Source: Akkermansia muciniphila
GTDB lineage: Bacteria; Verrucomicrobiota; Verrucomicrobiia; Verrucomicrobiales; Akkermansiaceae
Reading direction: 5' to 3'
NCBI GenBank assembly: GCA_947624785.1
Contig: CANQLV010000005.1
Coordinates: 1 to 64,000 of the forward strand
DNA length: 64,000 nt
The translations under genes were made by a program, and so were the position numbers. Shown piece by piece: positions 42,310 through 49,868 of this stretch. Below the pieces are notes generated by a model. That model ran no database searches and was not told the origin of the DNA. It was given only the letters and a program-made list of their open reading frames with translations. How positions within the stretch are numbered: the first letter of the stretch is position 1; each line of letters starts with the position of its first letter.

Positions 42310-44898
42310 ATGGAACCCGCTTCTTCCCGCCCGGTATTGACGTCTCTGGCGTCCGTTGCGTTCGCCCTGGCCGTTCTGTTCCTGTTCCTGGCGGTGCGCG
42401 GAATTTGGCCGCTTGGCGGCCATTACCTGGAATACATGGATAACGGGCAGATGGTGTATCCCACCTTGAAATATTATGCCTCAGCCCTGGTGACCGGAGC
42501 GTTTGACGGGTCCTTCTTTTACGATGTCAATGGAGGAGCGGGCATCCGCGTGAGCCCCTCCCTGCCGCACCAGCTGCTGGTTCCCTCCGCCTGGATTGCG
42601 GTGGCGATGGGAGACTCCTTCCTGTTGAAGGACATGGTCTGGGTGATGCTGGCGGATGTGGTCTGCATCTGCCTCACGGCTTCCTGGTTCCTGAGACGCG
42701 TCTTTACCTCCCTGCCCGTATGCTGGACCGTGCTGCTGACGGCGGGTTATGCCCTGGGGGGATTTTTTCAGACCAAGTACGGGTTCATGCAGTTCCTGGA
42801 CCACGCCGCCATGTTCCCCCTGTTTGCCCTGGGCCTTTACCGGCTGGTGAACGGAGGGAGGGGGTGGCTGTATGCCGTCGGCCTCTTCCTGCTGGCTACC
42901 TCCATGTACAGCGCTTTCATGGCTGTCGTGACCGGCTGGCTGTTCGCGTGGGCCTTCACGCTTCCCCTGAAAGGGACGGTGGAACGCCGCGTCCGGCTGG
43001 CCCGTGTGTTCTGGTACACGGCGGCGGTGACGCTGGCGACCTGCTATTACTGGCTGCCGATGATGGAGATGAGCCGGGATTCCATGCGTTCCCTGTTCAT
43101 GACACCACCCACCTTTTTTGAACTGTCCTGGCCGTTTGACCCTCCCAAATTCCTGGAACGCCTGTATGCCTGCCTGCCGGGAATGGCGTGCGCCGCTTTG
43201 GCTGCCGTCTATCTGGTTTACGGGAGGAAGGAGGCTCCGCCGGCGAACAGGGGGAGGCGGCTGTTTCTTCTCCTGCTGGCGGCGTCCGTGCTCCCTGCGT
43301 TCATTGAACCCCTTCACCGTGCCGCCCATCTGTGGAGCTACGTGGATTTTCCCGTCCGGTTCGGGTTCATTCCCAATCTGGTGGTGGTTTCGTTCTGCGC
43401 CTGGATACTGTCCGGCGGAAGGCTGCCGGAGCCGGTGGGGCGACGCTGGGGCTGGGGATGGAGCGTTGGCCTTCCCGTAGCGGCGTTTGCCGTCTCCCTG
43501 CTTGTCCTTCACGTGACGGACACGGACCTGGCGGTGCGCCTCCTGCCTCTGCTGTTTTTTGCATGCGCGTGGCTGTGCTGGAGGCATGCGGAAGGCAAAA
43601 GGCTGGTGTGCTCCATAGCCGCCGTGATGCTGCTGGGGCTGCCTGTGGGGGCTGCCGCGTTCTGGAAGCAGGGAGAAGAGGAAAAGGCCGCTGTCCTGGC
43701 CCTGAATGCGGAATGGCTGGCGCGCGGCATGGACGGGTACGCCGGGCTTCTGCGTGTGAAGGACAGGGACCGCCTGCTGGTGGACAACGCGGATTGCCTG
43801 GGGCCTGTCCCGGGCATCGGCAATTTCCGGCATACCACGAGCATCAGCCATTTCCGGTTTTTGAAAAACCTGGGGTACCGGGATGAATTCACGCGCACGT
43901 ACGGTCAGGGGGGCACCCTGTTTTCCGATCTGCTGCTGGGCCATGGCTTTGTGCTGGCGTCCCGACCCATGGAGGGAATGGAGTGTGTGCTTTCCCGGGA
44001 AGGCATGTATTTATACAGGCTTCCGGGCGCCCGCTGGGGGCTGGTAGTCCCCCAGGGCGCTCTGGGGCTGCGTCTGGATGAGAACGCTGATGTGTTCAGC
44101 AATCTTAATGCCCTGCACGCCGCGCTCTGCCCATCGGCGGAAGGCCCCCTTTATGAGGCCTTAACAGTGAGGACGGAGATGAGCGGTCCCTTTTACCGGG
44201 CGGGCATTCCGGAATATCCCGGCGCGGTGTACGGGTTCCCGCAGACGGATACGGCGGAACTCCGTGTCAATGGATGTGCGGTGCCCGTCATGGCGGAGGC
44301 GCAGAAGACCCCCGGCGGGACGTGCCGCACCTATAACGGGGTTTTGGAATTGAAGCGTGCGGCCGTTGCCGGGGAAACCGTGGTGGAGGGGAGGATGCTG
44401 CGGACTGTGGAGACGCCCCTTCTGGCGGCTGCGGCGCGTACGCCGGAGCAGGATGTTCCGGTTCTGGGGAAAGAGCAGGATAAGTACGGGATAGAGGCGA
44501 AAGGAAGCGGCGGCCATGTGGAGGTGGCGCTGACTGCCGGAGAAGGGGAGGCTCTCCTGGTTCCGGTCGTGTATGAGCGGGGATGGAGGGCCCGGCGGAA
44601 CGGGATGGAGGCGTCTGTGGAAAAGGTGGGGGAATTGATGGCGGTGCGCCTTCTGGAAGGGCAAAACCGGGTGGTGTTTGATTATTATCCGCCTTTACTG
44701 AAAGGTTCCCTGCTGTTTTCCTCTGGAGCGGCCGCCATCTTCCTGCTGTATGCATGGTGGGCGCGGCGGCATCCGGAATCCACGCTCAGGAGGATTGTTC
44801 TGGCCTGCGGATACAGGCTGTTTCAGTGCTGCGCCGCCGTGGTGTTGGCGGCTGTTTATATGGGGTCAATCGTGTTGTTTATTATACAATCGATGTAA
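42310..44898 (+). CDS. YfhO-like polytopic membrane protein
   Basis: 862 residues with at least a dozen membrane helices in the first half, a large soluble domain (about residues 455-775), and two C-terminal helices (LLFSSGAAAIFLLYAWWARR; CAAVVLAAVYMGSIVLFII). The N-terminal loop YMDNGQMVYPTLKYYASALVTGAFDGSFFYDV is characteristic of YfhO (GT-C-like) proteins, implicated in lipid-linked sugar transfer. Its last 84 codons are repeated nearly identically at 49598-49868; the final few codons here (IIQSM) differ from the copy (IVQSVL), so an AT-rich island was inserted at this 3' end. Confidence 0.85.
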   Translation: MEPASSRPVLTSLASVAFALAVLFLFLAVRGIWPLGGHYLEYMDNGQMVYPTLKYYASALVTGAFDGSFFYDVNGGAGIRVSPSLPHQLLVPSAWIAVAMGDSFLLKDMVWVMLADVVCICLTASWFLRRVFTSLPVCWTVLLTAGYALGGFFQTKYGFMQFLDHAAMFPLFALGLYRLVNGGRGWLYAVGLFLLATSMYSAFMAVVTGWLFAWAFTLPLKGTVERRVRLARVFWYTAAVTLATCYYWLPMMEMSRDSMRSLFMTPPTFFELSWPFDPPKFLERLYACLPGMACAALAAVYLVYGRKEAPPANRGRRLFLLLLAASVLPAFIEPLHRAAHLWSYVDFPVRFGFIPNLVVVSFCAWILSGGRLPEPVGRRWGWGWSVGLPVAAFAVSLLVLHVTDTDLAVRLLPLLFFACAWLCWRHAEGKRLVCSIAAVMLLGLPVGAAAFWKQGEEEKAAVLALNAEWLARGMDGYAGLLRVKDRDRLLVDNADCLGPVPGIGNFRHTTSISHFRFLKNLGYRDEFTRTYGQGGTLFSDLLLGHGFVLASRPMEGMECVLSREGMYLYRLPGARWGLVVPQGALGLRLDENADVFSNLNALHAALCPSAEGPLYEALTVRTEMSGPFYRAGIPEYPGAVYGFPQTDTAELRVNGCAVPVMAEAQKTPGGTCRTYNGVLELKRAAVAGETVVEGRMLRTVETPLLAAAARTPEQDVPVLGKEQDKYGIEAKGSGGHVEVALTAGEGEALLVPVVYERGWRARRNGMEASVEKVGELMAVRLLEGQNRVVFDYYPPLLKGSLLFSSGAAAIFLLYAWWARRHPESTLRRIVLACGYRLFQCCAAVVLAAVYMGSIVLFIIQSM
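44631..44882 (+). repeat. Left direct repeat: 3' part of the YfhO-like gene
   Basis: Matches 49598-49849 without gaps (constant offset 4967) with about six mismatches in 252 bases by eye. Weaker similarity begins near 44612. The repeats bracket the AT-rich RiPP island. Confidence 0.92.
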
Positions 44899-45281: not shown

Positions 45282-45854
45282 TTATGAATTGATGTAGCAT
45301 GGTGAAAAATCTGAAATATCAGCACAAATATCCGTAGATATATTTTGTTTAATGGATTCGATTCCTGAAAAGGCGATTGTGTGATTAAACCAAGATTCTA
45401 GCGTGCTCGTTTCTATATGAGTTCGTTCGTGATAAAAATTGAGCATGGATTTTGTATCGGAACGAATGAGCGTTATATTTTCCTGTAACTGATTCTGAGT
45501 TAAATGATCATTTAATGAAATACTTGGAGGGTGCAGGAAAAAGCGTGAGTTGGGGAAACAGCATCGTTTATTTCCTGTTAAATACAGGCAGATTGCACTG
45601 GAATCTACCGTTGCCAGATTATAAGTTTCAATGTAATCAAACAGATTCAGTAAAAGGCGGGATATGGATAAGGCCAAGGGGATGCTGCCCCCCGGTGAAT
45701 TGATGAAAAGGCGTAAGGGGATGTTTCTTTGATAACGATCTTTTTGAATTTCACGGATAAGTTTTTCTATAAGATCGTCGGAGATGCCTCCCATGATTAC
45801 CAGATCAGAATGTTCATTTTGCATGATAATTTGATTCCATGATGTTAAAGGCAT
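45282..45854 (-). CDS. ClpP-fold serine protease-like protein of the RiPP island
   Basis: 190 residues with the ClpP/crotonase fold: INSPGGS (51-57, oxyanion loop), TVDSSAICLYLTG with the nucleophile position Ser85 or Ser86, and PNSRFFLHPPS with His108. At the catalytic Asp position (ERDTERD in ClpP) it reads SWFNHTIAF, so the acid is replaced. The N-terminal axial loops are short. The 3' end lies at the island edge. A start at ATG 45854 overlaps the ABC exporter by 41 bases; ATG 45824 would overlap by 11. With no other protease in the cluster it is the best candidate for leader removal, but it may be inactive or regulatory. Confidence 0.8.
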   Translation of the reverse strand: MPLTSWNQIIMQNEHSDLVIMGGISDDLIEKLIREIQKDRYQRNIPLRLFINSPGGSIPLALSISRLLLNLFDYIETYNLATVDSSAICLYLTGNKRCCFPNSRFFLHPPSISLNDHLTQNQLQENITLIRSDTKSMLNFYHERTHIETSTLESWFNHTIAFSGIESIKQNISTDICADISDFSPCYINS

Positions 45855-47925: not shown

Positions 47926-49284
47926 CTATTGAGGAAATTCTTTTTGAATATCGATAGATGAAAGGTATCTATAAGCATTTAGTGCATCGTTGAGTACGAA
48001 AATTTCATGGTCGTTTAAAGTTCTGTAATTTATTTCTTTCAGAAAATATTCTAATTGATACTGGCATGCAGCCATGGCCTCCGCAGCATTCATTGCACAC
48101 CAGCGCCGATCGCGTTTATTAATGGAATTTCTATCCAGCATGTTAAAACCAATACAGGTCGGACACCAATTTAGCAGCCCACAGCCTCGACAATCATTAT
48201 CGGTCATTTGTTGTTCATCTTCCCAGCCATTAAAATCCTGATGCTTCATGGCGCGGTTTCCAAGAACCAGAGGAGTAAACATATGGCATCCGTACATGGA
48301 GCCGTCTGTATCATAGGTTGCCATATAAGTGCCACTACCGCAGAATTTGCTTTGCAATATTTTTGGGGACCCAATAAAAGTAAGTGGTCTTGTTAAAAAA
48401 TTACAGGGATGGTGCTCCGGATTTTCTAGGTAATAGTTTTTCAAGAGGCATAATTGTTCATAAAAGATTTTTGCGTCTGCATTATTCCATTCTTCGCCTT
48501 GCGCTAGGCTTGCAATAACTTTGTATCCATTTTTATGTGCAAAAAAAAAGGAATCATAAAGATGATGAAGGCTATTTTTTGATATGGTCATCTTGAAACC
48601 TTGAAACGGCCATGTCTTGCAGAAAAAATCTAAATCTATGTTTTTAGCCTGTTCTCCTCGATTGATATTTTGAGCATTTTCAATGCCATCGTAACTAATC
48701 CCTAAAACCATAGTTTTTCTATGATTTCGGAACCAAGTCTTCATTTCTTCTGAAATAAGGGTTCCATTGGTGGATGCAAAACAAATGAAAGGTATATTAT
48801 GATTACTAGTTTCCATCCATTCTACAATTTCTTTGATGAGGTCGAAGCGCAGCAATGGTTCTCCCCCCATAAAGTCAATTTCCAATTCCTTGAAACGTTT
48901 ATCATTTTTAACAATTTCTATTTCTTCATGGATAATTTTTTTGGCGAGAGATATATCCATTTTTTTTGAGCCATTCTTAAATTTTTCATAACAATAGGTG
49001 CAGTTCAAATTACACCCGTGTGTGATCAGGAGCATACAGGTGCGTCGTTCAAAGTATTCGTGACAAGAAGAGAAAGGGTAGACTGGTTCGGAAGCTGCGA
49101 GATTCATAACCAAACATATAACGGATTCCCAATCCGATATGCCCTGAAAACAGTGCATGAGTTTCTTTTTCTGTAGGGGACGGCCCTGTTTTTCTGCGCT
49201 GTTGAAACGGACATGGCCGGCAGATGTACTGGCTTTCAGGAAAAAGAGTTCTCCGGTTTTCAGATTTATCTTGAGCAGTTTCAA
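47926..49284 (-). CDS. Radical SAM/SPASM peptide maturase
   Basis: 452 residues. The radical SAM cluster motif is CNLNCTYC (Cys91, 95, 98), with GGEP at 140-143. The C-terminal SPASM domain has the seven-Cys order: Cys315, Cys333 (GSMYGC), Cys365/368/374/377 and Cys396, for two auxiliary clusters. The first 80 residues could hold a leader-recognition domain, though no PqqD-like pattern is clear. It should install thioether or similar crosslinks on the adjacent CXXX-repeat peptide. The start is TTG 49284, with an in-frame stop just upstream; the next in-frame ATG is codon 43. It is first in the island operon. Confidence 0.92.
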   Translation of the reverse strand: MKLLKINLKTGELFFLKASTSAGHVRFNSAEKQGRPLQKKKLMHCFQGISDWESVICLVMNLAASEPVYPFSSCHEYFERRTCMLLITHGCNLNCTYCYEKFKNGSKKMDISLAKKIIHEEIEIVKNDKRFKELEIDFMGGEPLLRFDLIKEIVEWMETSNHNIPFICFASTNGTLISEEMKTWFRNHRKTMVLGISYDGIENAQNINRGEQAKNIDLDFFCKTWPFQGFKMTISKNSLHHLYDSFFFAHKNGYKVIASLAQGEEWNNADAKIFYEQLCLLKNYYLENPEHHPCNFLTRPLTFIGSPKILQSKFCGSGTYMATYDTDGSMYGCHMFTPLVLGNRAMKHQDFNGWEDEQQMTDNDCRGCGLLNWCPTCIGFNMLDRNSINKRDRRWCAMNAAEAMAACQYQLEYFLKEINYRTLNDHEIFVLNDALNAYRYLSSIDIQKEFPQ

Positions 49285-49597
49285 AAGCTGGCGGCGGGTT
49301 CAGGATGGGTGGATATTTCTGAAGGTTTTCCGGCTGCAGAAAAAAGTTTTCAATGATGCAACAAAGTTTGTCACAAATTTCTGGTTCTCAAAATTCACAC
49401 TTGACTTTCGGATTGGGAATCCGCTGTTACATCCAAACAGATTTATAGCTAATCTATTATATGGTTGATAAGTACTGTATTTCCTGGTTGGTGAAAATGA
49501 AGAGGAATAGAATGAATTAGATCAAAATTCTCTGTTGCCATAAGAAAAATTGATGATTCTGATGAGTTTTGGGCGGGTGTGTTTGTGGAGAAGGGAA
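49285..49597. other. Upstream region of the RiPP operon
   Basis: About 310 AT-rich bases. It should hold the operon promoter. A palindrome CGGATTGGGAATCCG lies at 49409-49423, and the same 15 bases (opposite orientation) recur inside the radical SAM gene at 49122-49136. No gene is seen. Confidence 0.5.
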
Positions 49598-49868
49598 GGA
49601 ATTGATGGCGGTGCGCCTTCTGAAAGGGCAAAACCGGGTGGTGTTTGATTATTATCCGCCTTTATTGAAAGGTTCCCTGCTGTTTTCCTCCGGAGCGGCC
49701 GCCATCTTCCTGCTGTATGCATGGTGGGCGCGGCGGCATCCGGAATCCACGCTCAGGAGGATTGTTCTGGCCTGTGGATACTGGCTGTTTCAGTGCTGCG
49801 CCGCTGTGGTGTTGGCGGCTGTTTATATGGGGTCAATCGTGTTGTTTATCGTGCAGTCCGTGCTGTGA
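49598..49868 (+). pseudogene. Duplicated C-terminal fragment of the YfhO-like gene (right direct repeat)
   Basis: The fragment keeps the reading frame of the last 84 codons of the gene at 42310-44898 (MAVRLLKGQNRVVFDYYPPL, two membrane helices) and ends in IVQSVL-TGA. About six mismatches in 252 bases separate the copies. What follows is GC-rich chromosomal sequence, so this is probably the original 3' end of the gene, displaced by the island; the left copy then carries a replacement end. Confidence 0.88.

Follow-up and report, generated by a model that had tools for sequence, protein, structure and literature searches.

The last gene of a four-gene RiPP cassette in Akkermansia muciniphila encodes a protein of ClpP fold that, judging from its sequence and its gene neighbourhood, would serve as a dedicated leader peptidase, independent of any ATPase and working together with the exporter of the cassette; we give this reading a probability of roughly 0.55. 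A fuller version, which we advance tentatively, describes the protein as an ATPase-free Ser-His enzyme that is specialised for a radical-SAM-modified peptide and coupled to the exporter, and in which Asp84 may replace the catalytic acid. The cassette lies in a window of 64,000 nucleotides (positions 1 to 64,000 of contig CANQLV010000005.1), by which we mean the whole stretch of DNA that was analysed; residue numbers throughout refer to the 190-aa version of the ClpP-like protein.

All four genes lie on the minus strand, in the order radical SAM enzyme, precursor, ABC exporter and ClpP-like gene, and together would make and export a Cys-rich modified peptide. The cassette was probably imported, because its G+C content is low (38% versus 56% for the window) and ~270-bp direct repeats stand on either side of it. 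The cysteines of the precursor core (35, 39, 43, 47 and 51) show perfect CXXX spacing, and in none of the four exporter-bearing clusters described below does a precursor carry a Gly-Gly cleavage motif where leader and core meet. ABC_membrane and ABC_tran are the sole domain matches of the exporter, which agrees with the statement of a first-pass annotation that it has no peptidase domain; Peptidase_C39 is likewise absent from 4/4 exporters of clusters with a ClpP-like gene. The same annotation held that no other protease was encoded, and no further peptidase besides the ClpP-like protein was seen in these four clusters. Within the cassette we saw no immunity gene other than the candidate ClpP-like gene, the cassette region has no Rfam match, and the window contains no integrase related to those found beside other cassettes.

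Table. Features of the cassette and its borders in the window.
Feature	Coordinates	Strand	Remarks
Radical SAM maturase	47926..49284	(-)	Relative of PapB and of CXXX-repeat maturases; listed start codon TTG; homologues suggest start at Met60 (~49107)
Precursor peptide, 58 aa	47679..47855	(-)	Leader ~33 aa; TNC at leader/core boundary
ABC exporter, 562 aa	45814..47502	(-)	Membrane and ATPase domains; 3' end overlaps ClpP-like gene
ClpP-like protein, 190 aa as listed	45282..45854	(-)	Ser85, His108, Gly55-Gly56 oxyanion loop, family-specific Asp84, Thr159 at catalytic-Asp position
Direct repeat, left copy (~270 bp)	44613..44891		3' end of YfhO-like membrane gene
Direct repeat, right copy	49581..49858		96% identical to left copy

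The true start of the ClpP-like reading frame is probably Met11 (ATG at 45824). This start is likelier than Met1 because a homologue in one related genome (G039b, discussed below) begins there and because the cluster of Akkermansia sp. RGIG199 (G018, contig JAFNWZ010000429.1), of the same genus as the window's genome, has an equal 11-nt overlap with its exporter gene. With Met11 as the start, the protein has 180 aa and the exporter overlap is 11 nt (ATGCAAAATGA) rather than 41 nt.

The first-pass annotation had called this reading frame a ClpP-fold protein, and it is a real one: it matches Pfam PF00574 (CLP_protease) with 47.4 bits against a gathering cut-off of 20.2 (E = 2.7e-12), the other family members score 45.7-58.8 bits with the same profile, and solved ClpPs are matched from sequence alone with E values down to 4e-8. 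The predicted model (pLDDT 89.8, pTM 0.86) has ClpP as its best solved match (Z 21.6, rmsd 2.5, 170 residues aligned), and all 1000 PDB chains re-aligned to it reach a Z of at least 8; the input alignment of this confident model included true ClpPs, and its support for the fold is hence not independent of them. Structure prediction from two family sequences alone gave a pLDDT of 42.9. The Pfam and phmmer scores are evidence for the fold that is independent of the ClpP-containing alignment. The N-terminal axial segment of ClpP (VPMVVEQ..RGER.YDIYSRLL) is absent from 5/5 family members, which argues against a role as a standard Clp subunit.

The Ser-His-Asp triad of ClpP is incomplete in this protein: ClpP Ser98 and His123 have their counterparts in Ser85 and His108, but Thr159 stands where ClpP has the catalytic Asp172. 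The structural register (model residues 8-179 on S. aureus ClpP 21-192) agrees with the sequence alignment. The His is preceded by a 2-residue deletion and followed by an insertion of equal length that offsets it, which makes Ser98/His123/Asp172 correspond to 85/108/159 and places Ser85 and His108 on the ClpP active-site positions. The first-pass annotation was right about the SPGG loop, Ser85 and His108, whereas Ser86, which it had named together with Ser85, is Ala in the four other members and is not the nucleophile; Asn157-His158, which had been put at the catalytic-Asp region, are neighbours of the actual position. When the protein was aligned with a homologue 37% identical to it (L028), 12 ClpPs and 21 phage ClpP-like proteases, the only invariant columns were G55, G56, I64, S85 and H108. 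The acid column holds Asp in all ClpPs, Glu in 20/21 phage proteases (Gly in one), Thr159 here and Gln in the L028 homologue.

Conservation within the family follows the same pattern. Ser, His and the GG loop are kept by homologues in similar clusters at 26-60% identity, and they are among 22 residues invariant in all five members, as is Asp84; the acid position reads T/P/P/Q/G, four states with Pro in two members, and is therefore free to drift. Asp84 stands just before the nucleophile, a place occupied by Ala, Cys or Ser in all compared ClpP and phage proteins, and it may replace the acid that the family has lost. Catalysis by a Ser-His dyad is plausible by analogy, because published Ser-His-Pro ClpPs keep activity: ClpP1 of Pseudomonas plecoglossicida, N-terminally truncated and with Ser-His-Pro, is a weak but real peptidase that is inactive after Ser to Ala or His to Ala changes and retains ~60% when the Pro is changed, and P. 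plecoglossicida ClpP2 whose Asp is replaced by Ala or Pro has 13-16% of its activity left (PMC12900304). Listeria ClpP1, with Ser-His-Asn and no chaperone-binding motif, is active only with ClpP2 (PMC5361862). With the acid missing from every family member, the activity of the ClpP-like protein is possibly low or conditional.

Five members of the family were found, including the window's, all in Verrucomicrobiota, a range to be read within the reach of a single GTDB contig scan, which picks up close relatives only. Identity to the window protein is 60% and 53% for the two members in genome G039, 37-38% for that in G018 and 26% for that in G440, a genome of a different family in the same phylum as the window's. 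In the tree, the five members form one clade (support 100/99) on long branches, apart from ClpP and the phage proteases; profile scores lean slightly toward phage head maturation proteases, whereas the tree groups the family with neither. No true family member was found among the viral contigs or plasmids searched.

As would be expected of a RiPP leader peptidase, the ClpP-like gene is encoded together with precursor, maturase and exporter in 4/4 exporter clusters; these complete clusters, each with a radical SAM enzyme, a CXXX-repeat precursor, a C39-less ABC exporter and an overlapping ClpP-like gene, account for 4/5 family members. Gene order in G018 and G039 is that of the window (with a second radical SAM gene before the exporter in G039), whereas in G440 the ClpP-like gene comes after two genes for radical SAM enzymes and three for precursors, and is itself followed by a different exporter. 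The overlap with the exporter, from which the first-pass annotation had suggested coupled function, is present in all four (11 nt in the window, 50 nt in G039, 11 nt in G018 and 4 nt in G440), even with the order reversed. The G440 exporter aligns with the window exporter over the ATPase domain only (33%), and the pairing is therefore with 'an exporter', not just one inherited block. Across 76 genomes of the genus Akkermansia, the exporter and the ClpP-like gene were found in exactly the same three. Among related radical SAM clusters, the ClpP-like gene is present in 4/4 with an exporter and 0/7 without (Fisher P = 0.003), although the counts are small and the clusters related by descent, three of the four complete ones lying in one genus, such that we take the P value as an indication only. 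In the seven clusters without a ClpP-like gene, leaders would therefore be cut by something else or remain uncut.

The surroundings of these clusters vary. The exporter-less clusters (L064-L070) occur in Verrucomicrobiota, both in the window's genus and elsewhere; most have a Cys-rich CXXX-type precursor beside the enzyme, and some adjoin ankyrin- or Sel1-repeat proteins. The three CXXX-type precursors of G440 stand in a row (L026:11443-12228, minus strand). The remaining family member, G039b (L025:9524-10117), lies beside an integrase without precursor, maturase or exporter, and may be an orphan immunity-like gene or else a decayed cassette or deletion remnant. This integrase (L025:8075-9136) is full length and directly precedes the lone gene, and an orthologue of it also adjoins the complete G039 cluster. 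Together with L024:2689-3762 and L064:13824-14966 it makes up a set of tyrosine-recombinase-like integrases that are 53-78% identical and lie next to RiPP cassettes in two genomes of the genus Akkermansia, which suggests an integrative carrier for such cassettes.

We infer that the ClpP-like protein is an active enzyme, that its substrate is the leader, and that it works ahead of export and needs no Clp ATPase. The radical SAM enzyme would modify the CXXX repeats in the precursor core. The cytosolic ClpP-like protein would cut off the ~33-residue leader, with His108 activating Ser85 and the GG loop forming the oxyanion hole in the absence of a canonical Asp, and the adjacent C39-less exporter would then carry the core out; the gene overlap would lead to matched synthesis of cutter and exporter. 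Given a 58-residue substrate and the missing axial segment, an unfoldase should be unnecessary. The protein may form ClpP-like rings.

The main rival to this leader-peptidase reading is that the protein serves immunity or clearance, destroying, within the producer, free leader or any peptide that fails to be exported or comes back in. The conserved active site would suit any protease role, the lone G039 copy beside its integrase resembles orphan immunity genes, and the cassette shows no other immunity gene; we nevertheless consider this reading unlikely because the ClpP-like gene is coupled to the exporter gene and because the leader-cutting step would be left without an enzyme. Moreover, exporters often give immunity by themselves. 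It is less likely again that the protein is a pseudo-enzyme, or serves the exporter as a structural adaptor, its ClpP fold being retained for ring assembly or docking and its Ser and His being relics. The loss of the catalytic acid in all members and the long family branches are consistent with such decay, but just 22 residues are invariant in five sequences of 26-60% identity, Ser, His and the two oxyanion Gly being four of them, while the acid column has four states, and a relic is unlikely to retain precisely the residues found essential in published work.

We regard as improbable a role as partner subunit of the housekeeping ClpP, in which mixed rings would turn the host's Clp protease on the precursor. 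Such a role has a model in Listeria ClpP1, which combines an altered acid and a missing chaperone-binding motif with activity only in the company of ClpP2 (PMC5361862), and the genome does encode a housekeeping ClpP of its own; however, identity to that protein is low (~30% over a fragment), changes have affected the conserved Arg-Asp pair, the GQ loop that follows the His, and the N-terminal segment alike, and the cassette is present in unlike hosts. Least probable is that the gene is an unrelated passenger on a mobile cassette: the G+C difference (38% versus 56%) and the flanking direct repeats do indicate import, and integrases adjoin related cassettes, but adjacency to and overlap with an exporter gene are seen repeatedly, in two families of the phylum, and in one case the exporter is non-orthologous and the gene order reversed. 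A dedicated leader peptidase acting with the exporter is therefore the reading that we prefer.

In many radical SAM RiPP clusters, the enzyme that removes the leader is not assigned. No report of a ClpP-fold protease in RiPP leader removal was found in the literature searched, in which subscription journals were thinly covered; the accessible parts of the literature joining ClpP, RiPPs and precursor peptides deal mostly with lasso peptides, foremost lasso-based ClpP binders. The ClpP fold and CXXX-repeat chemistry are already known, whereas a ClpP fold in a RiPP cassette, lacking both the acid and the ATPase interface, has no precedent in the literature searched. If the leader-peptidase reading is true, the ClpP fold joins the RiPP proteases and could guide searches in clusters that have no C39, M16 or subtilisin partner, and the protein would be a natural case of a ClpP fold that works apart from Clp ATPases, has lost the catalytic acid and now serves a single small substrate. 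Being small and mobile, the cassette should be simple to reconstruct in a laboratory host for testing.

Among known systems, ClpP itself (MEROPS S14, PF00574) shares with the ClpP-like protein the fold, the SPGG loop, the nucleophilic Ser and the His, but the latter lacks the catalytic Asp, the Arg-Asp pair and the axial segment, falls in a separate clade and scores 24 bits with the NCBIfam ClpP equivalog TIGR00493, below the cut-off of 308.6. Pseudomonas ClpP1 (PMC12900304) and Listeria ClpP1 (PMC5361862) have an altered acid as well; the shortened N-terminus recalls the former and the lost chaperone-binding motif the latter, although both are ClpP paralogues of general proteolysis, whereas the protein of the RiPP cassette is much more divergent. 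Phage head maturation proteases (NF045542, PHROG 94, PHROG 2976) likewise have a compact ClpP domain with Ser-His and no axial segment, but at the acid position 20/21 of those aligned have Glu, unlike the cassette protein. Assignment to that group was rejected: NF045542 gives 35 bits (range of scores 35-54) against a cut-off of 120, and the neighbouring genes are RiPP genes, with no capsid genes.

The cassette as a whole resembles the CXXX-repeat radical SAM systems (TIGR04114/04115/04117/04119) and those of the PapB ranthipeptide maturases in having a CXXX-repeat precursor beside a radical SAM maturase, although scores for all CXXX and PapB models lie below their cut-offs (TIGR04115, 113.8 versus 350 bits; TIGR04117, 17.5 versus 50). 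No ClpP-like partner of these CXXX-repeat/PapB systems is described in the literature searched. The closest parallels in supposed function are the C39 bacteriocin exporters and the stand-alone leader peptidases (LanP, M16 and others); although the ClpP-like protein is of an unrelated fold and its cassette has neither a C39 domain nor a Gly-Gly motif, its job would be like theirs, the removal of a leader beside an exporter.
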